Source: Henricia sp. BOLD:AAB3569 (Eukaryota; Echinodermata; Asteroidea; Spinulosida; Echinasteridae). Taken from it: a stretch of DNA of 64,000 nt. This document shows positions 18,401-42,147 of this stretch, one piece after another. The stretch covers positions 3,286,001 through 3,350,000 of the forward strand of contig JBBELK010000308.1 in the NCBI GenBank assembly GCA_037783545.1, read 5' to 3'. Position numbers and translations under genes: made by a program. Each line of letters begins with the position of its first letter. Position 1 is the first letter of the stretch. Below the pieces are notes generated by a model. It searched no databases. It was not told the origin of the DNA and saw only the letters and a program-made list of their open reading frames with translations.

Positions 18401-21400
18401 ATCTTTACTGTGTCAGATGCAGGTCATGTGACAGAACCAACGTCAGGTGACAGAATCTAGCCAATCATGGCAAGTGTCATCCAGGCTCGGTCTTGGGTGA
18501 CGTCACACCCACGCGCTTCGCAGGATTTGCGGCGAAGTTTAGCAGTGGTTGGAGCGGGCAAACTAAAGTGGCGCGCGCAAAGCACTGCTAAAGGAGTGTA
18601 GTCATCCTCTTGCAACAGTGCCCCTTTAACGTACTCCCTAACTCCTGCATACAATGGCCCTGTTGAAACAGGCCCCATTTCGCGGTGGAACAAGCGACGG
18701 AAATCTTGTCGCCTCTGCTGGACCAATCAGGACGCTTGACAGTGCATTGCAGCATGATTGCAGGCTAGACTGGTTCCCGCTCCACATATTCCACATACAA
18801 CGACTAAATATGAGGACCGGCTACTGTGGTGTTTAAAATAGCACTTTAAGCATTACGTCATGCATTTATTTTTAGGAGCACATAACCGTTAATTTTCAAA
18901 GCGCGCTGCGCGCTATATGGCATGAGTGTACAACAATTTGAAAGGGGTTATTCCATATTTGACAAATACAAATTTAATATATTAACCTAAAATATTAAAT
19001 ATGCCCATTTTAATAATAATATACATGTAGGCTAGCATCAAAAAGAAAATTCAAACCATGTCTGCATCACCCAATGAGCTCCATATTGTACATGTAGTTT
19101 TAATCTTGCCCGCTCCAACCACTGCTAAACTTCGCCGCATATCCTGCGAAGCCAATCAGCACACCGCTTACAAAATCGTTAGGATTGTTGCACGGATAGC
19201 CAATCACAATCGGGTATCGCGCCGCGCCCCCTGACGTTCATGCATATGCATATATACCGCCGGTCCGCAGCGCGAGAAGTGAAATATACGCTTGCAAAAA
19301 AAGACGATGAAACACACCAAAAATCGGCAAATATTTCCCACTGCTAATACTCAAAACAGTCCATGTTTCCCTTCTACACAAAGAATATGTAATATTCTAC
19401 CCATAAATAATGAAAATTCTACGTACATTTGTCTAGTCCAGTCGGGATCCAACGAAATCTAACGGCATTCCGAAAAAACAGAAATCCAAAATTACCGCCG
19501 TGGCGCCGTATGGTTTCCCGTAGTCTGATTGGCTAACGATGACGTCATTGCTCGTTCCAGATTAGACTGCTTTACGGTCCACCTATTTTGCGTTGGTTAA
19601 GTTGTACGCAAAGAGCTTTATTGAATCGCCCCGAATTCAAGTACACAAACCTTATTTTTTAAATATCTATATTTCTCTTCTTTGAACAGTATTATTAAGC
19701 CCCACTAAATCAAAACCAATAAGCCAGGCGTGTATTTAATCAAGTTTGGATAAGTTTTTACTTAAAATCACTAAGCAAGGATTTGCAAGTTCAAATTTAA
19801 ATCTGAAGATTTTACTTTGTTGTACACAAGATTTAAGTAAAGGTCAGCTACTCTATTTCACAATCTTCTGTTTCCTTGCTCTATACATCTGCCCAAATAA
19901 ATTTAAATAAACAGCCAAACTCACTTTGGAAAAAATATATATTATGGTCTTGTTTTTGTGACACAGAAACACATCATGACATAAAATGATAGACTGCTAA
20001 CGGTTTTCTTTATTTATTCACTGTCACACAACTTTACACAGTCACTACACATGACATAGTGGATTTCAAAAACGTAAATATTGCCAAAAATGTAACCCAT
20101 AATACACTGTACATGCAAAACCATCTGCTGAATAAATAGTCACATCAATTAAAAGGTTTTGCTGTTGCAGAGAGTACATCATGAAGAAATATTATTAATT
20201 AAACTCCTTAACAGCATTGTTAAATTCCAACTTTTTGAATAGATACTGAAAATAAAGAATACTCTCTGACGATATTTATTTTTAAAACAATTTTTTAAAA
20301 TATTTAAATTGGAACACAGCAAGATGTTTGTTTGAGATTTCTGGTCCAAACAGGGTAGTTTGTGTTGCGAAACAGACTTGTGAAACCAGCGACAGTTTGG
20401 GGAGATTGTTGTCTGTGTTTGTGCAAAATTTCAGTGTAAAAAACATGCCCTTTGTTTGTTTGTTTTAGCACACAAAAATTATTATCAGTTCCTCTTCGTG
20501 AGCTTCGTCGAGTGCGTAATTTTCATTCCAGGCGTAAATGTGTGCTGTTACATTGACAACGACGTTGCGTGCCCCCACGTGTGCTACGTACTCCTGCTGC
20601 ATTTAGGCTTTCGTGACTAAGCTTATAGTTTAGCAGAAAACGAGACAGCGTGTTGAACTAAGACTGATCAGACTTGAAGTTGAGGAATTATTCGCTGGCT
20701 TGGCGCAATATATCTCTGTGGGGGCGCTTCATACTGCACCGCATTCTTCGGTATTTTTTTCGTATACATTGAACAAAGATTTTAAGGAAATTACCTCCTG
20801 GAATCAACACATAATGTAATTTTAAGATATTGAGCTCGTGCCAATGACGTCATTTTGGGAGTAAAACAATGCCGCGTCGTTGTGGAAGCAACGCGCACGC
20901 ACATTGCTTCCACAATGACTCAGCATTATTTGACTCCCAAAATGGCATATTCGCACGTGTTCGAAAGGGGTCAATACTTCCCACTTGCACTTTTGTCGCA
21001 AATGTTGCTTTTCTGTAGAAAAATCACGTTTTCTTCCTCAAAAATTGCCTTCACTGAGTTAGTGCACAAGATAACCATTCACGCGCGTGCGCAGCGCCCT
21101 CTGTTGTCGCGCTTACGCACAGACCGCTCGCCACGTCATTTTGTGCATTACTTTATGCAGTAATTTTATCATTTATTTATCTCAGAAATGCAACATTTGC
21201 GACGGAAGTGTCAGTGGGAAGTATATCTTAGAATTGAATAAGCTATCGATTCCAACATATAAATTTACCCAAATCCGTGTTCAATGTATATGAAAAAAAT
21301 ACCCATTGTTCATCTCCAGCTCTCCCCTAAACAGCCTAATAAATCAGTTTTAACACACATGATTTCGCGGTAAAAGAAGAGCTTGAAAAATGTGATTTCC

Positions 21401-21764
21401 TCACCTTTCTATAGGGATGTACAGTGATCACGGTGAAGGATTAGTGATGTCCGTGAAACAAATACTTACTGTGTAAAACCACACTAACAACCAGGACGAA
21501 ATAATGACAAAAAGGTCGACGCGACAGTGGGCAAAGCAACGTTAGTTTTGACTTACCTGGGCGCAGCCATCTTTACTGTGTCAGATGCAGGTCATGTGAC
21601 AGAACCAACGTCAGGTGACAGAATCTAGCCAATCATGGCAAGTGTCATCCAGGCTCGGTCTTGGGTGACGTCACACCCACGCGCTTCGCAGGATTTGCGG
21701 CGAAGTTTAGCAGTGGTTGGAGCGGGCAAACTAAAGTGGCGCGCGCAAAGCACTGCTAAAGGAG

Positions 21765-21933
21765 TGTAGTCATCCTCTTGCAACAGTGCCCCTTTAACGT
21801 ACTCCCTAACTCCTGCATACAATGGCCCTGTTGAAACAGGCCCCATTTCGCGGTGGAACAAGCGACGGAAATCTTGTCGCCTCTGCTGGACCAATCAGGA
21901 CGCTTGACAGTGCATTGCAGCATGATTGCAGGC
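21765..21933 (+). repeat. Host dispersed repeat, left part (continues at 22596-22890)
   Basis: Bases TCATCCTCTTGCAACAG... CTGCATACAATGGCCCTGTT... GGACCAATCAGGACGCTT match 26426-26596. The match resumes at 22596 after the inserted foldback. The continuation has GGCGATTGGCTGACTATTTAAAG, a CCAAT-plus-TATA-like arrangement also seen at 26692-26708. The family's nature is unknown. Related segments end the first two tandem units. Confidence 0.7.
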
Positions 21934-22585
21934 TAGACTGGTTCCCGCTCCACATATTCCACATACAACGACTAAATATGAGGACCGGCTACTGTGGTGT
22001 TTAAAATAGCACTTTAAGCATTACGTCATGCATTTATTTTTAGGAGCACATAACCGTTAATTTTCAAAGCGCGCTGCGCGCTATATGGCATGAGTGTACA
22101 ACAATTTGAAAGGGGTTATTCCATATTTGACAAATACAAATTTAATATATTAACCTAAAATATTAAATATGCCCATTTTAATAATAATATACATGTAGGC
22201 TAGCATCAAAAAGAAAATTCAAACCATGTCTGCATCACCCAATGAGCTCCATATTGTACATGTAGTTTTAATCTGCTGTTGCAATCCCGTAACTACGTAC
22301 CATTCATAGTGACGGTTACCGTAACTATAGCCATGCACTGAGAGCCACTGCGTAGTTTTTTAATCCGTGGCATCACCATAAGTACACACGCAAAATTCTC
22401 GAAACAATGACGAATTGTACCCGACGATTAACGGTAACGTCCGGACGACCGGACGTGCATTCGGGTAACTTCGGGAACCGTTCGGAAAAAGGAGGAATTC
22501 CTCCTGTTTCAAAATGGCGGAATTGGCGGATCCCGGACCTTAGATTCAGTCTAGTCAAATAATTTTTGGTTCGGGTACCAGACTA
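21934..22585. mobile_element. Complete TAGACTGG foldback with 10-bp TSD
   Basis: The ends are TAGACTGGTTCCC (left) and GGGTACCAGACTA (right). The 10-bp repeat GATTGCAGGC flanks it exactly (21924-21933 and 22586-22595). An uninterrupted paralogue at 26587-26596 has a single GATTGCAGGC, which confirms the insertion and its limits. The 652-bp body has no ORF of note. Partial copies are at 4480-5134, 12515-12711 and about 23050-23412. Confidence 0.88.
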
Positions 22586-22890: not shown

Positions 22891-23049
22891 TTACATCAAA
22901 ATGACTCGGGCGTGAGTTGGCTCAAGACAACAGCCGGCTCACTCCACATATTTGCGTGGATTTCCTCAGTAACGTCGCTTTGCAAATTCCCTGAGATCTC
23001 AGGATGCGTGCACGTATGCCTGCCCGGCCCGGGCCGCTGCGTGTGTATT

Positions 23050-23412
23050 TATGGTGATGCCAGGATTTAAAACTACGCAGTGGCTATAGTTACGGTAACC
23101 GTAACGCGATAATGAATGGCTATAGTTACGGGATTGCAACAGCAGATTGAAACTACAATACGGAGCTCACTGGGTGATGCAGACAAGGTTTGAATTTGCT
23201 TTTTGATGCTACATGTATATTAAAATGGGCATGTGTAATATTTTTAAGGTTAATTTATTAAATTTGTATTGATCAAATATGGAATAACCCCCTTCAAATT
23301 GTTATACACTCATGCATTTGAAAATTAACGGTTATGCGCTCCTATGTTTAAATGTAGCCGGTCCTCATACTCAGTCGTTGTATGTGGAATATGTGGAGCG
23401 GGAACCAGTCTA
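23050..23412 (-). mobile_element. Inverted partial copy of the TAGACTGG foldback
   Basis: It reads inversely to 21934-22375: ATGGTGATGCCAGGATTTAA, CTACGCAGTGGCTATAGTTACG, CACTGGGTGATGCAGAC, GAATAACCCCCTTCAAATTG, ending GGGAACCAGTCTA. With the complete copy it makes a ~1.5-kb inverted arrangement with ~400-base arms. Only one terminus is present. Confidence 0.7.
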
Positions 23413-26425: not shown

Positions 26426-26880
26426 CATCCTCTTGCAACAGGGCCCCTTAAACGCACTCCCTAACTCCTGCGTACAGTGGCCCTGTTGAAACAGGCCCCA
26501 TTTCGCGTTTTCGCGGTGGAACAAGCGACAGAAATCTTGTCGCCTCTGCTGGACCAATCAGGACGCTTAGCAGTGCATTGCAGCATGATTGCAGGCATTC
26601 AAATGTAACGCGCGCAGATTGTAAACACCGTGCATGCATGTGATACATTGTACTAGTATACTCGGTAATGCTGGCCGTTTTCCGCGTCGGCGATTGGCTG
26701 CTATTTAAAGGATACTGGGAAATCCGTTCATTACATTCGTCAGCATGCATCCCTGTTATTAATTTAAAAAAAATGCGGAGTAAATTAAGATCGTCGTTTG
26801 AAAGTTTGGTAGGAATGGGACAGTCATAAGGAACGGAACCCAATACGATTTCTGGAAAGTATAGAAATCGGGTCGCCGAC
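26426..26880 (+). repeat. Uninterrupted paralogue of the 21765/22596 host repeat
   Basis: Colinear with 21774-21933 joined to 22596-22865. It contains the empty target GATTGCAGGC at 26587-26596. Its left edge (ATCCTCTTGCAACAG) also preserves sequence next to the target of the 12727 element. Confidence 0.75.
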
Positions 26881-28685: not shown

Positions 28686-29822
28686 ATGCCTAGCCCAAGC
28701 ATTCCCAGACCAGAACAGAAAGAGATGAATGATGCCTTTAGTATCAGCTCAATGTTAGACGACTTAGAAGGTGGGGTACAGGGCTTCTTCAGATGTCGGA
28801 AAGCCGCAGTACAGTTAATCCGCGATGAGGCAGACTACGTCCAAAAGCACCACAAGAACACCCGCATTGCTACGGTAATGGCCTATCAAAGAGGCAAATA
28901 CAATTAAAACAATTTTGAGAAATAAATTTAATATTATTTAGGGTGGGTTTGGCCGGTCTTGAACGTACGTTTGAAACCGGCTGGGGGCCTGGACGCTGAT
29001 AATGGCCCGAGCCGCAAGGCATCAAAATCTTAAACACTCATGGGGGAAAAAGGGAGGGGTCAAAAATGTTATCTGGTCACGCTCCTTTAAGCTAGGGCCA
29101 CCACAGTTGCTCTTGCTCCCACCCCCCTCCCCCAACAAAAAAATCTAACATGCAATAACATGTTCCGTTTATAGCTTTCGGGGGCTTCAGCGTCGATCGT
29201 AGGGACTGCACTTAGCATCACAGGTTTTGGACTGGCATTCGTCACTTTCGGAGCTTCCCTTATTGTAAGCTTCGTCGGAGTTGGCATTGGAGCAGCCGGC
29301 GGACTGACAATAACTGGAAGCATCGTCGCAGAAATCATCACGTCTCGTCTGGCATCTAAAGCTGCACAGAAGATACTCAAGGAAGACGAAGAAGCCTGCG
29401 AAAAGCTCAAGGCAGCCTTCGAGCGACTCAACACGCTCTACGCGAAATTAAAAACATGCGGCAGTTTGCTTTCCGGCGGCAAGCAAATATATAATGTCGT
29501 AGATGCCCTGATTGACCTAATCAAGGGGGGCGCGGGCGCTATTAGAGTTGGGGAGGCGGCAGGCCAAACGGCCTTTGAAGCAACACGTACTATGGGAAGA
29601 GTCTTCGCGATTGCTGGTGTCGTGTTTGCAGCGGTCTCACTGCCGTTTGATTTGTACACGCTGGTAACCACGGCGGTACAAATTCATAAGAAGTCGGTTT
29701 CCAAAACGGAGGGTGCAATCCGAGAAATAGCTGATAAGTTGGATAGTCTGAGTGAGCAGGATATGCAGCGTTGCTGTAACGAGATCAATCGTATTAGAAG
29801 AAAAATTCAATTTGAGTCCTAG
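28686..29822 (+). CDS. Apolipoprotein-L-like protein (exons 28686-28874, 29175-29822)
   Basis: Two exons join in phase 0 (donor attgctacg|gtaatg at 28874; acceptor gtttatag|ctt at 29174) to give 278 residues from the ATG at 28686. A further 5' exon is possible because aacccag precedes 28648. Order: a hydrophilic N-terminus; a helix around FRCRKAAVQLIRDEADYVQK and HHKNTRIAT; a long Gly/Ala-rich hydrophobic hairpin (SASIVGTALSITGFGLAFVT, GVGIGAAGGLTITGSIV, about residues 64-112); an amphipathic Lys/Glu segment; a second hydrophobic stretch (RVFAIAGVVFAAVSLPFDLY, about 199-218); and a C-terminal helix ending NRIRRKIQFES. This is the APOL layout, a family of colicin-like/BH3-region proteins that act on membranes and ion flux. 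The biological role here is unknown. No AATAAA was seen just downstream. Confidence 0.82.
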
Positions 29823-30284: not shown

Positions 30285-32133
30285 GGGTCATTCCGCGTCA
30301 AATCAACCAATTTTCTGAAAAGTTCCCAGGTGACCCTCTCAGATTTTGATGAAATTTCATAAGAATGATTGAGTGTGGCCCAAATGAACACATACAAAAA
30401 AGTAAGATCATACTCCATGTCGTTTTCGAGATATGACCAGTTGAAATTTGGTCAAGAGGGCCATTTTGTGCTCGTGCGAGTCGCGAAAAGTGATTTTTGT
30501 GATATTTTCCGACTTTGAAAGCTCATAGTTCAGTCTTTGTACCAGGTAGAGAGCTCAAATTTGGTATTCTAGCTTACTTCTTGGCAAGATTCATGAATAT
30601 GCACTCAATTTAACTGTATCTGCTTTATTTTTCTGGTTATGGTCACCCAAAGTAGGCACTTTATTCAGCCAAAAATGTTTTTTGTGATTTTTGGGGTCAC
30701 CCTGTGCCCACATGATGGGTCAAATAAATCCTATATTCCCTAGGTATTATCTATGGGTGCATGTCTATACCCATAAGCAATTATAAGCTCACCAATGCAT
30801 TAATTAAGAAATGGCATGGGCCCAAAGTTGGCTCCAGCCAGAAAAAAAGGTCAAAAAGACCCCTCCCGTCTTGACCCTGGTTGACCCCGCGATCAATTGA
30901 ATTTTTTTTTGAAATTTACACCACTTAAACATATATATTATATCTACTTATACACTAAATTTCAGCTTTGGCACTCAACTCCTTCATGGTGTGGTGGCAA
31001 TTTGAGAAATAGACGTTTTTCGCACCTTTTTCCTTGATTTGCAAAAATGGGTATTTGTCAAAATGCGTAATTGTTTATTTATTTGTTAGCTTAAGATGTA
31101 AGGAACATTTCTAGAAAGATTTGGGATGGCCACTCTTACAGTTTTTTAGTTACAATAATTTTAACATTGGCTAACATGTACATGTAAATACCATGTAAAT
31201 AACATGTAACTGTGTCTGTACATGTGCTGTACATGGTATTTACATGTTATTTCTAAAAACAATAATAAAAACAAAAACAAACTTTTTCTGATGAATTTTA
31301 GTGTTGAATATACTTTTTTTCTAGCTGCAAAAAAATAAATTACACAAGCTTCAAAGTTGAAATACACTGTATGATGTTAAATTACTGTACGGATTTATGT
31401 TTAAATAAGCGAAAAACTTATATTCAAATTGCCACCACACCATGAAGGAGTTGAGTGCCAAAGCTTAAATTTGGTGTATAAGTAGATATAATATATATGT
31501 TTAACTGGTGTAAATTTCAAAAAATGTTTCAATTGATCGCGGGGTCAACCGGGGTCAAGACGGGAGGGGTCGTTTTGACCTTTTTGTGGCTGGAGCCAAC
31601 TTTGGGCCCATGCCATTTCTTAATTAATGCATTGGTGAGCTTATAATTGCTTATGGGTATAGACATGCACCCATAGATAATACCTAGGGAATATAGGATT
31701 TATTTGACCCATCATGTGGGCACAGGGTGACCCCAAAAATCACAAAAAACATTTTTGGCTGAATAAAGTGCCCACTTTTGGTGACCATAACCAGAAAAAT
31801 AAAGGAGATACAGTTAAATTGAGTGCAGATTCAAGAATTTTGCCAAGAAGTAAGCTAGAATACCAAATTTGAGCTCTCTACCTGGTACAAAGACTGAATT
31901 ATGAGCTTTCAAAGTCGGAAAATATCACAAAAATCACTTTTCACGACACGCGCGAGCAGAAAATGGCCCTCTTGACCAAATTTCAACTGGCCATATCTCG
32001 AAAACGACATGGAGAATGATCTTACTTTTTTGTATGTGTTCATTCGGGCCACACTCAATCATTCTTATGAAATTTCATCAAAATCTGAGAGGGTCACCTG
32101 GGGACCACTGGTTGATTTGACATGGAATGACCC
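30285..32133. mobile_element. 1.85-kb foldback element with ~710-base arms
   Basis: Arms 30285-31006 and 31425-32133 are inverted with scattered mismatches. They start GGGTCATTCCGCGTCAAATC and end GGTTGATTTGACATGGAATGACCC-type. GTTA occurs directly outside both ends (30281-30284; 32134-32137), a possible 4-bp TSD. The 418-base loop is AT-rich with no transposase ORF. The terminal GGGTCATTCC word is shared with 55727-56582, so they may belong to one family. Confidence 0.85.
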
Positions 32134-32591
32134 GTTAGTGATGTCAAAATTCCATAACATTGGTGTTAAAATCATGGTGAGACAGTAAAAAAAACTCCTC
32201 GAGGCATGACATGAAAAAAAATAGAATAAAACCAAATGTATGGGGGAACAGAGCCCCCGCCTCCCACCGTATAAGCCTACTCGTTAAAACCGTGGCATGT
32301 TTCTCTTTTAAAAACCCTTATTTATTCTCTCATTTTAAAAGCTTTGACTCAATAGATGTGGAAAATGTTAAGTGATCGAGAAATTAAAATTGAATTGAGG
32401 CGCGCGCTAGCTGATGTGCCCCAGCATTTCTCAAATCTCCTGCCGATCTGAACAGTCATCAGTCCGAAGCAGTCGACACCTGTCAAGTACACTAAAAAAA
32501 TAATTCGTTGAGGAAACTTAAACAAATAAAAGCAAGTCTGTTGCTATAGTCTTGGCCCAAAACTATTCTAGTCGATATTGGTTTGTGTATG

Positions 32592-32633
32592 TACCACAGA
32601 CATAAAGAACCTAGGTTCTTTATGTCTGTGGTA
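32592..32633. repeat. 42-base perfect palindrome inserted in a foldback arm
   Basis: It starts TACCACAGACATAAAGAACC and reads identically on both strands with no spacer (centre CCTAGG). The sibling arm near 33350 reads straight from CGCGT to ACACAAACC without it. It is therefore an insertion or expansion, not an original part of the element. Confidence 0.85.
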
Positions 32634-33101
32634 TGTACGCGTTGGCTATTCCCGGTAGTGCGCCCTCTTGCAGCACTAACATACCAGCCATTTGCTCGAC
32701 TAGAATAGTCTTAGGAATCTCTCCCGGAAGGTTTAATTTTTTTTTTTTTGGCTAGGCTTTCCTAGGAAATGAATCAGCGAGCGACCCAAATACAGCGCGT
32801 CGGCCGGATGCAGCGCGCGACCCAAATACACCGCGTGCACGCGCTTCGAATGGTTTGAAAAAATATAAGGTGGCTTACAAGAATCATCGAACATTACCGT
32901 TTTATCGTTGCTAATATTTTCGGTGGCATAATTTTCTTGGCAAATGTTTGTGAATATATTTACAAACATATTTGCAAAGGCGTATGACATCGCAAAATAC
33001 ATTTGTTTATGAAGATAATTGCGACATTGCAAATATTTGCAAAGATATCTGTGGTATGCCATGTCCCTTGTGTGCCATCATAAAACCCTGTGCAGCTATT
33101 T

Positions 33102-33229
33102 AGGCTGGATCCGAATTAGTGGCTTTGGCTGTGGCTGTGGCTGTTGCTATGGGCGGACAATGAAAGTCCTTAGAAACAGCATAGCAACAGCCGCAGCCAC
33201 AGCCAAAGCCACTAATTCGGATCCAGCCT
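33102..33229. mobile_element. 128-bp hairpin (AGGCTGGATCC)
   Basis: AGGCTGGATCCGAATTAGTG pairs perfectly with its inverse at the right end. The arms extend ~50 bases through GGCTGTGGCTGTGGCTGTTG. The loop is ~25 bases. Probably a small MITE. Confidence 0.8.
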
Positions 33230-33896
33230 TACATAAAACGGTACCGCCTCCAATGCTGAACTTCCGGGAGAGATTCCCAAGACTATTCTAGTCGAACAAA
33301 GGATTGATCTGTTAGTGCTGCAAGAGGGCGCACTACCGGGAATGGCCAACGCGTACACAAACCAATATCGACTAGAATAGTTTTGGGCCAAGACTAGTCC
33401 GTTGCCTTGATTCAGTTACGTCCTTTCAACTTAACGTATTTTGAAGTTAAAGCCATGCCTACTTGTTTGTCAAGATTACTTTGTGTCAACAGTACTGAAT
33501 ATACTTAATTATTTCAAAATAAGTTCTTTTTAAATTTAAATTAGTAATTTCAACTTCTGAAAATGTAAGTTCTTTTTACTCAATCTGGTAAATATTTATT
33601 ACTTATACATGTAGTTGTATTTTTTAAAACAACTAAAAAAACTAAATGGAATGCATTCACTCTCATTTTCTAAGTATTTCCAATGTCCAGTGTTTTTAGT
33701 TGTTGCAACTTAATAACCTGTAGTAAGTTTATAGGTTTGTCAATTGGATTTACTTGCTCTTGACTGAAAGATGTCTATACTAATCGCATCATCCGTTCCG
33801 TATCCAGAGATAACCGGACGGTCTTTGCTCCAGGATATGTCTCAAGATTCAACCTATTAAGGACCCAAGAGTCGTTTCTCGGGAATCAATACTTAC

Positions 33897-33957
33897 CTCA
33901 AAAAAATGCTCCAAGAGAGCCCGACAGTAACCAAAAACTAAGCAACGTAACAGCCAT
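33897..33957 (-). pseudogene. Candidate signal-peptide first exon with stop at donor
   Basis: ATG at 33957 in ACCATGG context opens MAVTLLSFWLLSGSLGAFF, a good secretory signal peptide. An ideal donor (gag|gtaagt) follows at 33897/33896. A run of seven T on the coding strand creates TGA immediately before the donor. With six T the frame would stay open into the intron junction. A palindromic GCGCATGCG (NRF1-like) lies ~45 bases upstream. It could be a real first exon with a length error in the homopolymer, or a decayed one. No downstream exon was identified. Confidence 0.3.
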
Positions 33958-34669
33958 GGTTAGCACGCCGCAGAAACAAGACTTTGTACGTCCCCTACGC
34001 GCATGCGTAATTATGCACGGGTCTTACCTAATGTCCAACCAACCATGGAGGAAGATGAACCAACACACAAATTACAAAAAGACAAAACGTAATGTTCACT
34101 GAATTGTTTCCATTGGTTTTACTAAAATTTGTTGCGTTCCTGTACGGCATCAATTTTATGTTGCATTTAAGTATTGTAAGATTCAGTAAATAGAACTAAT
34201 AATATTAATTTCACTTTTAGTGCATTTCACTTTAGAATTAACTTAGTAAACTTGCACACGGAGTACAAAATTGTATAAGTGTTCTTAACTAAATTATTGC
34301 AACTATTTGTTTAACTTAAACTGGTTTTGTTCCCGTAAAAAGGAATTTTACGTTGCGCAAAATTTTAAAAATTTCAGTGCTTCCTACTTTACAAAAACTG
34401 TAAAAGAGACGACAATATGATTTCAGTAATTGTTACTCAAATATAACAAATAAAGTTAACTTAGTTTTAATATTGTTACTTCTACTAATCCAACGTGTTG
34501 TTAACACAAAGAGTTCTATCCACTTGTTAACATTTCAAGTTGGTATAACGCCATTATAAACGTAAATGCAACAATAACATAGTTTTGTGTAATATTTACT
34601 CATTTGTCTCGTTTAAAATTTACTTCAGGTCAGCCTCATTTTTTTGAGTGTATAGAAGGCTGGCTTTTG

Positions 34670-35240
34670 GATTCGGAGATGTGCATGCAGGAGGAAGATC
34701 TCCTATTTTGGGAACAGTAAGGGTTGCTCTCCATCTCTGGCAGTTGAAGCATTGAAACTGGTGGTTCCTGATTGCCTTTCTACCATGCACAATCCCGAAC
34801 TTCCTTCTGATTTCAGCATGGACATGTTGTGGGCCATATACTGTATCATGTTCTTGTCATAGGCACGGATTAGGAGTTGTCGAAGGATGTGTTTGGTCGA
34901 ACACTTGTATCTGCACTTGTATGCCATGTCAAGACGATAGTATAAATCACTCCACGAAGTGATGTTCTCCAAAGATCTGGTCAACTCCTCTAAAGAAAGG
35001 CTGGATACTGTACGTTGAGCCCCTTTGGTGCGACCCTTGACCCGGCCATGATGTGCTCGGCATCTTCCGATTGAAAATGGGCCACTGCACCAAAGATCCT
35101 CTCTGAGGCGTCACAGAAAATATAAAGCTGCTACGTCTGGGTTGATGTCTGGTGTTGTGTTAGACTGTTGTGGTAGCTCGCTTTTGCACTTTTGCCACCG
35201 GTTCGTATCTCCTGGTTCCAGGACTTTATCCCAGTCACGT
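34670..35240 (-). pseudogene. BEL/Pao pol remnant: RNase H-like and integrase zinc-finger part
   Basis: Read on the minus strand in shifting frames. WDKVLEPGDTNRWQKCKSEL (about 35240-35165) is the region between RT and RNase H. FIFCDASERIFGAVAHF and SRVAPKGAQRTVSSLSLEEL (about 35130-34985) match the FxDAS and RVAPK blocks of Pao elements. RRKFGIVHGRKAIRN and CFNCQRWRATL (about 34820-34720), followed by LPPACT, match the integrase HH-CC entry region. Several frameshifts and stops break it. The rest of the integrase is not seen. Confidence 0.75.
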
Positions 35241-35774
35241 TTTGTTTTCTGCAAGTCCTGCACAATGACATAGGTAGTCTTAGTAGTCTAGGCCCTAGAC
35301 GGTCATTATTTTGTTGGATACCCGACTGCCGCGAGAGGGCGTAATCACAACTTACCGATCCGATAGACTCGCTCCTAGTCCTATCACCATATCGTTTTAT
35401 TGTCTGTGTTGCGGCGATCGGTCTTAGGGATGAACGCACCTTCAAAACAAAACAATAACAACGTCTAGGGCCTAGACTATGACATAGGCTGTTGCAGTGA
35501 AGGGGTCAGGTATATACGACGGGGTCGAACTGACTGGCTAAGGTTTTCACTTCTCTGAGCTGGTATTGCAGGTCGTCAGTGCTGCAGTCCCACGTACTTG
35601 CGCCCGAGCATGAGTTCGGCGGTATAGATCTAGTCCCACCAAATACATACCAGCCACAGATCGCAATCGTTTCAAAGGGCCTTTGGACTAGCTAGGTCAG
35701 CTACAACACTGGGCAAGTTACTATAGCCGCCCTTGGGAGCAAGTCATGTGTAGCATCAAGCTTCATTCTCTCAG

Positions 35775-36860
35775 CATCCAAGCAATTGTCAACGCAGAAT
35801 GATTGGTCTACTGCGGTAGCAACTTGTGGGTCCTCTTCTTGACGGTGGTCGCATTTTTCGCATAGTGGCGAATAAGCGATTTTTCCGAAATTGAGATTTT
35901 GTCATATTTAGGGTTCTAAAGATGCCAATTTTCATTTGTGAAGGTTTTAAATCAAAAATTTGAGTGGTTTTTCAGTAATTAAAAAATGCAGAATGGGGAA
36001 TAGGCTCATGATTGGCCGAGCGTTTTTTGCGTAGTGACGAATACCGACATTACGCTGGTGACCGATGGCGCCTTGCGCATTACAAGGCAACGCCTCCTGC
36101 CGGGAACCAACAGACACTGCGTGAACCAAACACTCCTAACTTGGGGAAAAATCAAACACACTGTGGAATTTGCAGCGTTTGAGAAGGAATTAATTGATAA
36201 ATCAAATGCTAAAATAACCACGTGTCCATCTGTGTAAGTACCAGCCTTGTCTGAAATCCAGATGGGATAATATCAATGACGAAACTGAAGGCGACAGTTC
36301 AGATTTTCACAGACGCGTGCAAAAGAATAGGCGCGGCGAATAAGTACCAAAGCCGGCTTGCATTTTTTGCATAGTGACGAATCGTGAAAAAGTCCATAGC
36401 GTTACGAGCGGTGAATAAGACGCACGTGGTGTTGGTTTTTCGCGTAGTTCGTGGAACCAATATCCCTCCGAGATTACCCTTACTTATGCCAAAAACCCAA
36501 CATAAGTTTAGTAAAACTCTTCGCTAATAACAATTTTCTAACAAAAATTGAATTTTGTTACGAAAAGAAAACGAAATCCAAGAACCAGAATATGCATTAC
36601 TAAAAAGCCGTATAACTCGAAAGTGGAATTTTGCTGATTCGCCACTAAGTGGTGGGCCTATAAGTACATGTAGGTGCTGGTTGAGTACCTGGTTCTGGTA
36701 CTGGAAACACGGGGCAGTAATTCCCGTTGTGCATATGTTCAACAAGGTGATGTGGAAAATATACCAGCATTCGTCGGATTTGGCAGCTTCCTCCAGTGAC
36801 AGGATTTTGGCATAGCCACCTTCTACTAACTTCTGGACCAGCTCGTGCTTTTCTGCTAGC
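35775..36860 (-). pseudogene. BEL/Pao reverse transcriptase remnant, interrupted
   Basis: LVEGGYAKILSLEEA and CWYIFHITLLN (about 36840-36740), then FQYQNQVLNQHL (about 36700-36660), correspond to the N-terminal RT of Pao elements. The catalytic box is at about 35800-35780 and reads FCVDNCLD, so the second Asp of the YVDD-type motif is Asn. Between them, about 35846-36520 is unrelated sequence, probably an insertion that displaced the RT core. The element cannot be active. Confidence 0.65.
35846..36520. other. Unidentified insert in the BEL/Pao RT region
   Basis: The insert carries repeated phrases of the type TTTTTCGCATAGTGGCGAAT, TTTTTGCGTAGTGACGAAT and TTTTTGCATAGTGACGAATC at irregular spacing. 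Its ORF (36034-36237, +) has no recognised domain. It may be an inserted element whose ends I cannot define. Confidence 0.4.
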
Positions 36861-37149
36861 TGTGGTCGGTTTCTAAGCGCTTTTCAGTCCTTCTCGGGGT
36901 GGGACGAACAACTTGGTATCATCAGCTCGCAACAATTTAAGTAGGTGATGTAACTTTGTATCTAACTTCTGGCATTCACACGAGTTGTTTTGTGTTTAAG
37001 CAACTTCGCGGCTCTTTGGTCTCTCTTAGAGGGAACTATACATGTATCTCATTCACATGCGGAAGATTGTCTTCTTGCCCGAGTCTCTCGACACGTTTCA
37101 TCAGATTCGTGGTCTCTGCTGGGGCTGAAACTCTTTCATCTCTGCTCAT

Positions 37150-37870
37150 CAGCCTTTTGCTCCAAGATGGTCTCTGATCTGAAGTGTCCAACCTAACTTG
37201 GTCAGAACGGCTACTATAGTGCTCTGTGAGGTCCAAACCTGACAGGTTTTCTCGGCGTGATGAGGTCCATTTGATCTGAACCAATAAGGATCACCGGTTG
37301 AGCACACCCAATTCCTGATAGCGGCAAATCCCGGAGATATATGTGGGTACTTCTGTTGCAGGGTTTTTACCTCATGTATTCAAAGAGGCACAGGTAATTG
37401 GGAGCCGTGAATATGCCATTAAGGGAGAATTTGGAACCAGGCTTGACATACGATAACAGTGATAGAGATACGGATTGGCCCTGGCATATGACGTTGTCTT
37501 CCCCGACGGTTCTCCAATGCATGGTTTCTGGTTTACCCTGTATGTTGAGCTGTCCCTTGCAGAAGCATCGCTCGGATCCATCATCTAGCAGTGCATAATA
37601 AATAAGATCAGAGTGTATGCTTGTACTTGGGCCATGGCGGACAACTCTCACTAGCAAGATGCCAGGATGTTGAGATTTATCTTTGCAGACCGACTTCATA
37701 TGGGTGGTCAACATAGGTTTCACCAAATACACATTGGTGGCTTCCTTGGCTGCCTCGTCCAGAACCATCAGGTGAAGCTGCTTGCACTGGTGGCATGGTT
37801 TCGTCAAGGTGCAGAAAGCTTCAGGTCTTGTTTGCGGCAACAATTTCAACAGCGCTTGTTGTCTTGGATC
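37150..37870 (-). pseudogene. BEL/Pao aspartic protease (DUF1758-like) remnant
   Basis: The minus-strand ORF from about 37849 to 37367 has a Cys/His cluster (CHQCKQLHLMVLDE), then the protease active-site block YYALLDDGSERCFC with the catalytic Asp in LDDGS. Downstream, VILIGSDQMDLITP (about 37295-37255) and AVLTKLGWTL (about 37210-37190) are the next conserved Pao blocks, in different frames. The family is the Pao/BEL LTR retrotransposon polyprotein. The frame breaks and in-frame stop show decay. No LTRs were identified. Confidence 0.8.
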
Positions 37871-38019
37871 TACTTGATGTTATCGGGCGTTGTGTGACTT
37901 GAACTTCCGACAGCCATTCAGGAAGTGATTCTTTAATTCGTCACATATAAAGGGCAAAATAACTTGATCTTGTTGGATATGGGGCCGAGGGAACGACAAC
38001 GCCGCCGCTCCCCCACCAT

Positions 38020-38185
38020 TGTCCTCCAATTGTGTCCCAAACATCGAAGGAATTCCAAATGATTTTCTTTCAGTTTTTAGGGGGTAGGGTTGGTGAGTTA
38101 ACAAAAGGGAAAAGTGTGTCGAGTCATAGGGCGTTAGGGGGCGGGCGGGGGCCGTCCCTAGGCCCCAAATCGTGCTGGGTATATT
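38020..38185 (-). repeat. Inverted copy of the 11040-11240 repeat
   Basis: GTGTCCCAAACATCGAAGGA, CAGTTTTTAGGGGGTAG, GTTAACAAAAGGGAAAAGTG and GGCCCCAAATCGTGCTG match the 11-kb copy in reverse order. It appears inserted in or next to the 5' part of the BEL/Pao remnant. Confidence 0.6.
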
Positions 38186-38479
38186 CTCTCCTTTGGTTGG
38201 TATCAGTCTGGTCGTGAAAATGTGGCCTGGGACTGCAACATTTAACCTACGTGGCAAACTGAGGTAGCGTACGTTTTGCCCAAGTTTGGATTCAGGGCCA
38301 GACTTCACACAGTATTTGATGAAGTTGGTGCGGAGACTGGGGGAGAGCTTGCTCAGTAGCTTATCTACATGTGAGGCACAGTGAAGTTCAACTCAGTCTT
38401 GTTGGTTTAGCCGGCGCGGCATTCACCGCCCATCATGCCGCGCCTACTTTTAAAAAGTAGGCGCGTATGGCAAGTCAAA

Positions 38480-38700
38480 AGATTCACCCACAAGAATAAC
38501 CTTGGATAAATTGCGGTTAAAAGTAGTATACATGTATATACACGATTGGTAAACTGTTAAAAACAGCGTGAATTCCGTGGCACTGGTAATTGAAAGCCTA
38601 CAGTGTATGTTGAGAAAACTACCTTGTAGAAATTTCAGCCAATGCAGTAATACCCGGTACTCTAGAAAACCTGAAACAAATCCAAGCATGGTTTTTGTGC
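38480..38700 (+). repeat. Dispersed repeat, 'GATTGGAAAAC' family copy 2
   Basis: It shares ACGATTGGTAAACTGTTAAAA, ACTACCTTGTAGAAATTTCAG and GCAGTAATAC with the copies at 28205, 46826 and 54050. Diverged and non-coding. Confidence 0.5.
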
Positions 38701-39327
38701 ATGAATGAATGGCTCCACAAATCGCCTACAGACGATCTTTATTTGTAGATTCAAATAGTTTTGTAATTTTTCTCATGAATGGGGGTACTCGGACGAAATT
38801 TCACAGGATGATTACTACCATTACCATCTTGATAACAAGTATTAAGCTTGTAGATCATAATTGAGACATTTTTTGGAGGGTAATTACCAAACATACCTTT
38901 AAGATGGGTTGGTTGTCTATCCCGTCTGGTATCTGAATTTGGATGAAACCTTGGCTAGGAAACAGAGTCGGGAAAAAAGGGGCAAATAATTTGAAACGAA
39001 GTCGACATGCATGGTGTCAGCCATGACGGGCCATCCGGGCTGCATTCGGGCACACAGTTCTTGTTACTTCGAAATGATGCGTGCGCACTCAGGTCACATC
39101 GCGTGAATGGCAAACGTGCAGTCTGCATGCGCGAATGGCTGTCTCTGGCCTTTGCTCGTACCCAGCTTGCCCTTACAGGGCACTGGGACAGGCTAATGTG
39201 TCTGCACCGATTTTTGTGACGGAAACATGTGACGCAAAGGTCACATATACATGCCCGCGGAGCATTGTGGGTTGCTTGCTGCTAGACGAATAATTAATAA
39301 ATAGTATGTGCTTATGTATTCAGTGCA

Positions 39328-39507
39328 AAAATAAAATTTACAAATAAAATTAGTGTACTTTGCGCGAGACCCACGTTGTCTGCTGATAAATTGTTTTTAC
39401 GTCTGTTTACAAGAAAAAGACGTAACCTCGTGGATCACGTGTCTTATAAAACAGACAAGGCAGTCTCGCACACAGTACACTCATTTTATTTGTAAATTTG
39501 ATTTTTG
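39328..39507. mobile_element. ~180-bp hairpin MITE
   Basis: AAATTTACAAATAAAATTAG with TGTACTTTGCGCGAGAC pairs with GTCTCGCACACAGTACACTC and ATTTTATTTGTAAATTTG. No coding capacity. Confidence 0.65.
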
Positions 39508-39665
39508 TTTGCATTGGATATATGAGCGTTTACCGTTAACATACTTTTTATCAATTTTTCGTGTGGTAGTATTAAAGCAACCCACAAAATCTGTGAAGGC
39601 ACATCAGCCCATACCAGCGCCCAGTATGGGCGACTGGGAACGAGCGAAATTAGCCCGTCCCAGCG

Positions 39666-39910
39666 TAGCCTTGGTTAGGCGTTCATCGATAGTCCAGGGC
39701 GTGAGCTAACAGTAAGCACGCCTGTTGTCCCTGGATTTCCAGCGCAGAAAAAAAGAAATACATAATGTGAACACAAGGCGTTCATACCGCTTAAGTTAAT
39801 TTGCATAAACTTGTGCCACGCGAGGTCACTGTTTACGCTGGAGAAACGAGCCACAGGCGTGTACCTTTAGCTCACGCCCTGGACAATCGGTGAACGCCTA
39901 ACCAAGGCTA
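39666..39910. mobile_element. 245-bp TAG-ended foldback with exact 9-bp TSD
   Basis: The ends TAGCCTTGGTTAGGCGTTCA and TGAACGCCTAACCAAGGCTA are exact inverses. GTCCCAGCG is repeated exactly on both sides (39657-39665; 39911-39919). Confidence 0.9.
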
Positions 39911-39950
39911 GTCCCAGCGCCCTCCCTGTAAGGGCGAGCTTGGTACGAGC

Positions 39951-40547
39951 TAGCCCTACAAACAGGGCTGTAAATGGCTCACTTATGAAATCTGACTTAC
40001 TACTGTCGCTATTACAGCTCTGCTACAAGGCCGTGTGAAAATGCCCGATGTCGAAACTGCCGAAATCCGAGATAGTTTGACTCAAGACTGCATATATTGC
40101 CCGAAATACGTACATCAGACAGAGCACTTTCACATACACCATTGTAATCCTGAGAGTTTAGTGATTCATAACATAACATTACCTTACGGAATCGTCGATT
40201 TGGCCATCTACGGCGTCTTGAAAAATTGGACAATATTCATTCAGCGTTCTGCCCTGGGCACCGCTATTTTAGCTGATATGCTGGACGATGGTGGCGCTTC
40301 TCGATCATGAGAAGTCAAGGAGCCCGGCTGTGAATATACATATCCACATGTACAGTACACACACGCACATTACTTTGTGCGTACTGTACAGCCTTACTGC
40401 ACTGCGCGCATGACGTACTTATATGAATTGTGGATCTATTGTCACATCATTTAAATATGAAAACCTGCCCTCTATCATGGCCGCTCCAATAAGGTCTATA
40501 AGTCAGATTCCAAAAGTGAGCCATTTACAGCCCTGTTTGTAGGGCTA
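39951..40547. mobile_element. 597-bp TAG-ended foldback, imperfect 9-bp TSD
   Basis: The ends TAGCCCTACAAACAGGGCTG and CAGCCCTGTTTGTAGGGCTA are exact inverses, continuing AAATGGCTCAC / GTGAGCCATTT. Flanks GGTACGAGC (39942-39950) and GGTACGACT (40548-40556) agree at the first seven positions. An ORF inside (40035-40310, +) has no recognised domain. Confidence 0.8.
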
Positions 40548-40592
40548 GGTACGACTACGAGCGAGTCTGGCATGGTCTGATATGTCACACAC

Positions 40593-41251
40593 TAGCTAAG
40601 ATAATCTTAGCTCTTGCTTTATCATTTTTCATTGGGATGTGGTCTTTTCACCAGTAGAGCTGAGATCTGCTTTAAGAACATGAACACGCTATCACAAAAC
40701 AAATGTGCCATTTTCTCACCGTGACACACTAATTCCCCCTAAAACTCACCCAAACCTTGTCAGGCATAACCACTACGCAGGTCCTTGAGGGAAATAACCA
40801 GCCTTGATGATTATTTTGCCAACAATTCCAGCGAAACAAACCGCGGTATGCTCACAGCCTAGCCGTTGTTTGTCTGGTTGTGTTCAAAAAGTCTATCTGC
40901 CTAGTCTGTGTACAAAGGAATACCAATGCGCATTGGTTACCAGACGTTTAGATCACGACTTTTTGAACACAACATGACAACGGCTAGGCTGTGAGCATAC
41001 CGGTTTGTTTCGCTGGAATTGTTGGCAAAATAATCATCGTGGCTGGTTATTTCCCTCAAAGACCTGCATAGTGGTTATGCCTGACAAGGTTTGGGTGAGT
41101 TTTAAGGGGAATTAGTGTGTCACGGTGAGAAAATTACACATTTGTTTTGTGATAGCGCGTGTTCATGTTCTTAAAGCTTCTCAGCTCTACTGGTGAAAAG
41201 ACCACATCCCAATGAAAAATGATAAAGCAAGAGCTGAGATTATCTTAGCTA
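40593..41251. mobile_element. 659-bp TAG-ended foldback with exact 9-bp TSD
   Basis: The arms of ~300 bases start TAGCTAAGATAATCTTAGCT and are almost complete inverses, leaving a loop of about 50 bases. GTCACACAC is repeated exactly (40584-40592; 41252-41260). The differences between arms are single-base. Confidence 0.92.
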
Positions 41252-41269
41252 GTCACACACAGTAGTGAC

Positions 41270-42147
41270 TAGCCCCGCGAGCAGTGCTTCGGTTTTCAAA
41301 ACCTTAGCCCTGTCTTCTGCTATACACAAAATCTGTGGCAAACTCACGCAAATGAAATTTGGCCCACGGCTCTGATATTTGCTCAATAGGTGCACTCACC
41401 CCAGTTTATCAATATTCCGAAGAGTACGCATCGATCCGATGTCTAGTTTCGGTGAAATCGTGGGGACAGTTTGAGACATTACTTACAATGAAATTCACAC
41501 TCTTTGACCAAAAATCAAATATGCGCATGCGCGAGGGCGGAGAGGTCAACATAATAGCGCCATCTCGCGACGGCGTCGTCACGTACCAGCTGCACAACGG
41601 CTGTTTCATGAGAGAGCACATCGACTCTATGGTGGCGTACAAGAGACGTCGCAAATCAAAGTTATCTTTGCAATATGATGTCGAACAACTTCGATATCTA
41701 CCTGAAAATGATCAAACGTCTGGCTTGGCGGCATGGCATCGCGTGCAGCGCGCGCTGTACGTGTAGATCTATAGAACGTACCGCGCGATAGAGTCGATGT
41801 GCTCTCTCATGAAACAGCCGTTGTGCAGCTGGTACGTGCGACGCCGTCGCGAGATGGCGCTATTATGTTGACCTCTCCGCCCTCGCGCATGCGCATATTT
41901 GATTTTTGGTCAAAGAGTGTGAATTTCATTGTAAGTAATGTCTCAAACTGTCCCCACGATTTCACCGAAACTAGACATCGGATCGATGCGTACTCTTCGG
42001 AATATTGATAAACTGGGGTGAGTGCACCTATTGAGCAAATATCAGAGCCGTGGGCCAAATTTCATTTGCGTGAGTTTGCCACAGATTTTGTGTATAGCAG
42101 AAGACAGGGCTAAGGTTTTGAAAACCGAAGCACTGCTCGCGGGGCTA
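41270..42147. mobile_element. 878-bp TAG-ended foldback with exact 9-bp TSD
   Basis: The arms of ~370 bases (41270-41638; 41788-42147) start TAGCCCCGCGAGCAGTGCTT and are nearly perfect inverses. AGTAGTGAC is repeated exactly (41261-41269; 42148-42156). Its left TSD begins one base after the previous element's right TSD. The 135-aa ORF spanning the left arm and loop has no recognised domain. Confidence 0.93.

Follow-up and report, generated by a model that had tools for sequence, protein, structure and literature searches.

Nine families of TA[G/C]-ended foldback elements with mostly 9-bp target-site duplications in the genome of Henricia sp.

Introduction

Foldback elements, such as FB/NOF of Drosophila, are built as inverted repeats, and foldback transposons with 9-bp duplications are already known. 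Among the DNA transposon superfamilies, hAT elements generate target-site duplications (TSDs) of 8 bp, with some hAT ends beginning with TAG, and the P superfamily generates TSDs of 7-8 bp. In this study, we analysed a stretch of 64,000 nucleotides from the echinoderm Henricia sp. BOLD:AAB3569 (assembly GCA_037783545.1, contig JBBELK010000308.1, positions 3,286,001 to 3,350,000; hereafter the window), in which an initial annotation had described six unrelated foldback elements sharing only TAG...CTA termini and a 9-10-bp target duplication. Nine families of such elements (F1-F9) are considered here, all of which end in TA[G/C]. They are repeated elements with common boundaries and mostly 9-bp (occasionally 10-bp) TSDs, and the copies of one family are near-identical; that they are real, not a product of chance and recently mobile is nearly certain. 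On balance, we regard them as probable non-autonomous foldback DNA transposons that depend on one or a few transposases acting in trans, for which the Mutator-like element (MULE) superfamily is the likeliest source.

Several described systems come close to these elements. Muta1 and the foldback MULEs of Aedes aegypti combine 8-9-bp TSDs, long terminal inverted repeats (TIRs), a foldback form and a palindromic terminal motif, and Muta1 has many derivatives, most sharing the TIR alone, together with identical recent copies (PMC5225508). The Henricia elements are alike in TSD, long TIR, foldback form, palindromic terminus and the presence of recent identical copies. Whereas Muta1 has a terminal palindrome of 10 bp, 12-bp tandem repeats after it and a known transposase (PMC5225508), the elements described here have a dyad of ~18-20 bp, a TA[G/C] start and one short tandem array (in F1), and no transposase was found for them with two transposase profiles. 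The Tm1 Mutator/Foldback elements of root-knot nematodes have TSDs of 8-10 bp, mostly 9 bp, in 45/53 (PMC3169594). They share with the present elements the foldback form, the mostly 9-bp TSD, a largely transposase-free state and the lack of a clear target consensus, but they bear asymmetric 7-bp outer motifs and ~14-bp tandem repeats in place of inverted, dyad-bearing tips (PMC3169594). Tetris of Drosophila is likewise an inverted-repeat foldback with 8-10-bp TSDs and no known transposase, but it has 220-bp tandem repeats in its TIRs and few complete copies (PMC4079207). Rehavkus is similar in its 9-bp TSD and TIRs of 26-400 bp and differs in the PHD finger and minisatellite reported for it (PMC6446971). 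No description of foldbacks with TA[G/C] dyad tips and 9-bp TSDs was found in the open-licence literature, as covered by titles and abstract openings and with Repbase outside the search.

Materials and methods

The genome searched comprises 740,731,340 bases (740.7 Mb) in 2,104 contigs. F1-F5 served as queries in the copy searches. Counts from these searches refer to rows of matches, of which each copy gives several; every search had 40 scored candidates. Fetched loci and contigs are designated by L and C numbers, respectively.

Inverted repeats were scanned for with the terminal letters left free, using 20-bp tips with at least 16 paired positions and exact direct flanks of 7, 8, 9 or 10 bp. 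The material was the 64-kb window and 58 fetched loci, of which L009 and L029 overlap the window and cause some double counting. Automatic tip pairing allowed at most two mismatches in 14 bases and at most 3.4 kb between tips, and was run on the window plus every locus of 200 bases or more, except L001, L009 and L029, which are window copies. The boundaries of the F1 and F3 end pairs were placed by eye at TAG/CTA.

Results

The window contains the following elements and related segments.

12727-15432, unstranded: F7 element, 2706 bp, TAC...GTA, exact 9-bp TSD GTCATCCTC; absent from the initial annotation
21934-22585, unstranded: F6 element, 652 bp, exact 10-bp TSD GATTGCAGGC; arms differ beyond the tip
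23038-23412, minus strand: second F6 copy, partial, in opposite orientation; its end agrees with the TAG boundary
26509-26648, unstranded: empty paralog of the F6 insertion, with one GATTGCAGGC
32545-33396, unstranded: F1 element, 852 bp, left end extended by two bases (TATAG), 9-bp TSD with one mismatch
33102-33229, unstranded: segment of the F1 copy skipped in alignments, ~128 bp, a small inverted repeat
39666-39910, unstranded: F2 element, 245 bp, exact 9-bp TSD GTCCCAGCG
39951-40547, unstranded: F3 element, 597 bp, 9-bp TSD with two mismatches in the window copy
40593-41251, unstranded: F4 element, 659 bp, exact 9-bp TSD GTCACACAC, perfect dyad in the left tip
41270-42147, unstranded: F5 element, 878 bp, near-perfect foldback with ~360-bp arms, exact 9-bp TSD AGTAGTGAC

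The coordinates, tips and flanks of the six elements first described (F1-F6) were all reproduced, including the exact 9-mers at 39666, 40593 and 41270, the exact 10-mer around 21934-22585 and the weaker flanks, with two mismatches at 39951-40547 and one at 32545-33396, the latter requiring TATAG as the left end. The long TIR that is a feature of MULEs, in which it often exceeds 100 bp, is present in F5, with its ~360-bp arms, and in F4, which has paired stretches of 75 and 160 nt; F2 measures 245 bp as a whole. The longest open frame inside F1-F6 has 136 amino acids, and a Pfam scan, applied to this frame only, gave no match above the cut-off; Rfam and tRNA scans gave no matches either. A repeat finder run inside F1-F6 reported a single short array, at 32775-32835 in F1. 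The long inverted repeat, the TSD, the many copies and the failure to find a transposase are together the features of the foldback class, or that of miniature inverted-repeat transposable elements (MITEs), which is non-autonomous. At the skipped segment of F1, the listed alignments to other copies break at query position 558 and restart at 685; a convincing TSD was not found in its flanks. The elements of four families are packed into 2.5 kb at 39666-42147, and the F4-F5 spacer consists of nothing but their two target duplications.

Genome copies retain these boundaries. The searches returned 222 (F1), 109 (F2), 123 (F3), 86 (F4) and 123 (F5) match rows. Automatic pairing yielded 72 tip pairs from the nine families, of which 49 are flanked by exact 9-bp duplications, one by an exact 10-bp duplication, five by duplications with two mismatches and none by an exact 8-bp duplication; with flanks displaced by 9 bp, two or fewer mismatches occurred in 1/72 pairs. 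The initial annotation's view of mobile elements with 9-bp, rarely 10-bp, TSDs is thus borne out, and the duplications fall within the MULE range of 8-11 bp. F4 has an exact 9-bp TSD at the same TAG...CTA boundary in 15 of 20 loci, the window copy among them; L016 and L025 are partial matches and L014, L022 and L023 lack a TSD. The six F3 end pairs show exact 9-bp (four), exact 10-bp (one) and one-mismatch (one) duplications. Among the seven F1 loci L002-L008, the duplication is exact in two and lacking in two, and in three no tip pair could be found; four further end pairs gave an exact 9-bp TSD in three, the failing pair being the same copy as L003. Copies elsewhere thus make good the weak flanks of F1 and F3 in the window. 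The 29 F2 loci (L030-L058) divide into six exact, four with two mismatches, three with none and 16 lacking a tip pair; the paired F2 relatives span at most 1,150 bp, and the 39 other scored candidates are 71-87% identical to F2. In 56 exact TSDs, symmetrized, G is favoured at position 1 (0.42) and position 2 (0.38), a mild target preference for G.

The F6 insertion offers an independent view of its boundary. Its flanks reappear at 26509-26648 around a single GATTGCAGGC, the pattern expected before insertion with a 10-bp duplication, and this paralogous site supports the F6 insertion. The partial copy stops at 23412 with an identical TAG tip and different flanks, which favours a TAG boundary with a 10-bp TSD over CTAG ends with an 8-bp TSD. 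The proposed boundary, which paralogous empty sites with other limits would have contradicted, is retained.

F5 has spread most recently. Of its 40 scored candidates, 27 are full length with 99-100% identity, and each of the 20 copies fetched, which were drawn from the top of these 40, is flanked by an exact 9-bp TSD when the outermost tips are taken. Seventeen of these copies were aligned, L064, L076 and L078 being omitted for length. No difference in 879 bp separates the five copies L059-L063, from which the remaining 12 depart by 1-4 substitutions and the window copy by one gap; the mean pairwise difference is 0.26% (136 pairs). F5 has moved so lately that its mobilizing enzyme was probably active until recently. 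The exact 20-bp F5 tip occurs 972 times in the genome (488 forward, 484 reverse), against 0 for the reversed-pattern control. The first 100 places listed include 40 neighbouring plus/minus pairs, 31 of them 55-1,155 bp across, five 2,680-8,679 bp and four more than 20 kb; F5-tipped pairs of 2,680 and 3,327 bp lie on C3, one of 6,828 bp on C38 and one of 8,679 bp on C19. In L064, one exact outer 9-bp TSD encloses two F5 elements and a 24-bp spacer, and in L076 the first 20 bp are present as a tandem pair, of which the outer copy is the one bordered by the TSD; both are expected traces of an enzyme that reads the tips alone. L104 is a 5,489-bp F5-tipped element with an exact 9-bp TSD. Capture of host DNA was considered for it and rejected, the interior being a 5-kb repeat present elsewhere, with longer matches of 97-99%; this young repeat (L104:259-5278) has no open frame longer than 138 amino acids. 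The TSD of the F5 copy in L073, AGATAATCT, forms part of the F4 tip sequence, which suggests that this copy landed in an F4 element.

Two of the F5-tip pairs are only 55 bp across. Since F5 has GGTTTTCAAAACC just inside its tip, such 55-mers were predicted to be the first 27 bases folded at GGTTTTCAAAACC. The predicted 55-mer was found with 0 mismatches at both predicted places, and versions with 2-3 mismatches occur at another three, giving five palindromes beside a related 58-bp pair.

C9:453164-453218; C37:1338606-1338660; C340:2452545; C861:528012; C297:1035107: perfect or near-perfect 55-bp palindromes of the F5 tip
C23:1011348-1011405: 58-bp pair of F5-like tips

The 55-mers may derive from snap-back copying, or from deletion between both GGTTTT[C/G]AAAACC palindromes of one element.

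The end rule also emerged when terminal letters were left free. In the window, the 9-bp class comprised four matches, F2, F4, F5 and F7, and displaced flanks gave 4, 2, 0, 0, 3, 0, 0, 0, 0 and 0 matches at ten offsets (total 9), eight of which span an array with a 3,168-base period and one of which lies elsewhere. In the loci, the 9-bp class comprised 30 matches, with TAG at the left end in 25, TAC in two and F1 or F2 variants (CAG, AAG, TAA) in the remaining three; the right end is a variant in L015 and L056. The corresponding controls gave 17 matches over ten offsets, seven of them at the worst offset. A TA[G/C] start was seen in 1/26 control matches of window and loci, located within an F8 arm. 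The enrichment of TAG-type ends, which had been proposed for testing, was thus positive in the window and the 58 loci, the extent of the test. The sequence around loci fetched with F4 contained another two families.

L011 3133-3545 and L017 2338-2886: F8 family, TACCCCTAGAAC, begins with TAC
L024 2314-2924: F9 family, TAGACCCGTGAACAGGG

Because F7 appeared in the window and F8 and F9 in these flanks, the rule surfaced without being sought. TAG as the sole common end was rejected, since F7 and F8 start with TAC; the claim that the elements share only TAG...CTA holds insofar as independent families obey an end rule, and gives way over these TAC starts and over the dyad described below.

The 7-bp matches of the scan are shortened 9-bp ones. 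A separate 8-bp class in the window was rejected, all its matches being self-palindromic 8-mers, tandem-array pairs or a shifted F6; in the loci, 14 of 16 8-bp matches are self-palindromic, the exceptions being L038 992-1835, considered below, and L025 787-1183. The latter is an inverted repeat of 397 bp whose tips read GGTATTTTTTTCG and which is flanked by an exact 8-bp repeat, TTAAATAG; a similar arm occurs at window position 20750. The array occupies 12765-22300 with a period of 3,168, every 250-base block compared across 13001-19000 being identical, and is a recent duplication or an assembly artefact. Its start lies ~40 bp inward of the F7 left tip, and one left tip therefore stands beside three right tips.

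Past the first three bases, the nine tips diverge, with a mean identity of 31% over 17 bases. Four of the 36 tip pairs (F3/F5, F3/F8, F3/F9 and F5/F9) are nevertheless alike at 11/17 positions, and the description of the elements as unrelated has to be relaxed for these. In seven of the nine tips a dyad spans ~18-20 bp with its centre 10-11 bp from the end, the letters varying by family: it is perfect in F1 (8/8 pairs) and the F4 left tip (9/9) and partial in F3, F5, F7 and F8 (6/9 at one fixed axis) and F9 (5/9). An exact-stem hairpin test was weak for most families, and a mismatch-tolerant dyad test was used in its place. The mean best dyad pairing of the nine tips is 0.68, against 0.44 for shuffles, of which 0/20,000 reach the observed value; 24-mers from inside the arms score 0.43 on average, again with 0/20,000 reaching 0.68. 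With F1 and F4 left out, 8/20,000 shuffles reach the score; with one of the alike F3, F5 and F9 retained, 0/20,000; and with F2, F5, F6, F7 and F8 only, 132/20,000. A pattern for the F3/F5/F9-like tip has 1,707 genome matches (854 + 853), the 972 exact F5 tips included, against 53 (25 + 28) for the reversed control, all in this one sub-clan; with one extra spacer base it has 36 (18 + 18) against 11 (4 + 7).

Two transposase profiles were used in the search for the enzyme. PF10551 (MULE) has 19 matches in the genome. PF20700, which we take to cover Rehavkus, has five, on C871 and C921, four of them clustered on one contig, and a stop lies inside four of the five. Of the five MULE loci read, none combines TA[G/C] ends with a TSD. 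L079, L081, L082 and L083 were rejected as MULEs with ends, no acceptable TIR with a TSD being found; L079 has two weak 8-bp pairs, and L082 and L083 resemble parts of a longer duplication with no clean boundary. L080:3269-5701 is a MULE of 2,433 bp with a 479-amino-acid open frame and a 10-bp TSD, CCTGCATGGC.

Discussion

The nine families likely form one clan with a common end module, and hairpin elements of unlike sequence, usually filed separately, would thereby be united. Their movement would be of the cut-and-paste type, in trans: a DDE transposase, most likely of the MULE type, would bind the terminal module as a dimer or through a tandem pair of domains, join any two such inverted ends regardless of the interior and integrate them with a 9-bp stagger and a mild preference for G at the first two target positions. 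Because the tips alone would be read, interiors could vary freely, giving many unrelated-looking foldbacks. The length of the TSDs, the long TIRs and the resemblance to Muta1 are the grounds for the assignment to MULEs, and the balance of these features tilts towards membership of that superfamily.

A number of observations weigh against this interpretation. With the two profiles and the DNA read around five of the 24 domain matches, all five of them MULE loci, no element carrying these tips proved to be autonomous; the autonomous DDE copy that the initial annotation proposed to look for did not appear in the DNA read. L080 is foldback-like, with GAAGC tips and 16-bp subterminal tandem repeats, and is unlike the TA[G/C] elements in its ends. 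Conserved G/C in the first three TIR bases is reported for most arthropod MULEs (PMC13359780); this start is not definitional for MULEs, and the nine families begin with TA[G/C] instead. L038 992-1835, an 844-bp inverted repeat of another family, combines TAG...CTA ends with an exact flank of 8 bp, CTTTATAG, and TAG ends are therefore not bound to 9 bp alone; together with the differing tips of L080, it leaves MULE membership unproven. Seventeen of the 72 tip pairs have no duplication, although some of these are false pairings or involve inner tips in L064 and L076, and the TSD of F6 is 10 bp rather than 9 bp. The dyad is poorly matched in F2 and in the left tip of F6, and its axis range was set after the tips had been inspected. 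L104, the sole long F5-tipped element read, owes its length to the nested 5-kb repeat and not to a transposase.

The hAT and P superfamilies do not match the target duplications. hAT MITEs have TAG-type ends in some cases, matched by L038 with its 8-bp flank, but the 8-bp TSD of hAT is found exactly at 0/72 tip pairs, compared with an exact 9 bp at 49/72. L038 departs from the 9-bp rule; it may come from a different superfamily and is perhaps of the hAT type. The 7-8-bp TSD of the P superfamily is not matched, with no exact 8-bp duplication in the 72 pairs and 7-bp matches that are trimmed 9-bp ones.

The alternatives concern how many enzymes act and of which kind. It could quite well be that each tip family has its own transposase, all with a 9-bp stagger and TA[G/C] ends, the likeness stemming from the ancestry of the enzymes; the divergence of the tips inward of the terminal triplet (identity of 0.31 on average across 17 bases) and the different ages of the families, F5 being near-identical and F2 at 71-87% among its 39 other scored candidates, speak for this, whereas the 9-bp TSD in nearly all families, the dyad in 7/9 and the tips of F3/F5, F3/F8, F3/F9 and F5/F9, still alike at 11/17, speak against it. 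That the enzyme represents a DDE superfamily not yet described, marked by a 9-bp stagger and dyad tips starting with TA[G/C], seems unlikely: the tips differ from the G/C-rich tips reported for arthropod MULEs (PMC13359780) and from those of L080, and no transposase was linked to them, but a missing partner is weak evidence when two profiles were used and five of 24 domain matches were read. We consider it still less likely that the enzyme comes from the Rehavkus/PF20700 'Mutator' branch rather than from PF10551 MULEs, since the matches are few and four of the five contain an internal stop, although the genome does hold five PF20700 matches, four of them clustered on one contig, Rehavkus is listed with 9-bp TSDs (PMC6446971) and the tip pairs match that length.

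Two further explanations would do without transposition of the elements as units. The initial annotation had allowed for a foldback-generating process, and snap-back of hairpins during repair or replication could account for the exact 55-bp palindromes, in which the outer 27 bases of F5 are folded back at GGTTTTCAAAACC; these five palindromes show that tip-to-tip foldbacks exist, but they can equally be explained as deletions between GGTTTT[C/G]AAAACC copies, and full-length near-identical copies at many sites, each with its own exact 9-bp TSD, indicate transposition. Snap-back as the origin of the elements is highly improbable and already disfavoured for F4 and F5, and their mobility can be explained in its absence. 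A negligible probability attaches to chance or to a choice made by the earlier reader's eye: the elements were indeed chosen by TAG and the displaced-flank controls in the window are not all zero, but eight of these nine control matches lie over the tandem array, boundaries are common to genome copies and the F5 tip occurs 972 times against 0, so that the controls refute it.

Under the preferred reading of mobilization in trans by one or a few transposases, the apparent recent activity of the youngest family means that the enzyme ought to be findable, and the end requirements of a transposase become directly testable. In a bolder form, to which we give little credence, the enzyme would respond to the two-fold symmetry in the terminal 20 bp more than to their letters, the dyad being kept while the bases turn over; one enzyme, perhaps from a DDE group not yet described and cutting with a 9-bp stagger, would then move many foldbacks, and the tip palindromes would seed the 55-bp foldbacks. 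Were the enzyme to recognize symmetry in place of sequence, grouping transposons by tip sequence would undercount who moves whom.

Other features of the window

A large inverted repeat at 30322-32105 has 525-nt arms that are 97% paired; no direct repeat of at least 5 bp was found near its ends. Open frames at 2250-3209 and 29175-29822 match the Pfam families of ubiquitin-conjugating enzyme and apolipoprotein L, respectively.

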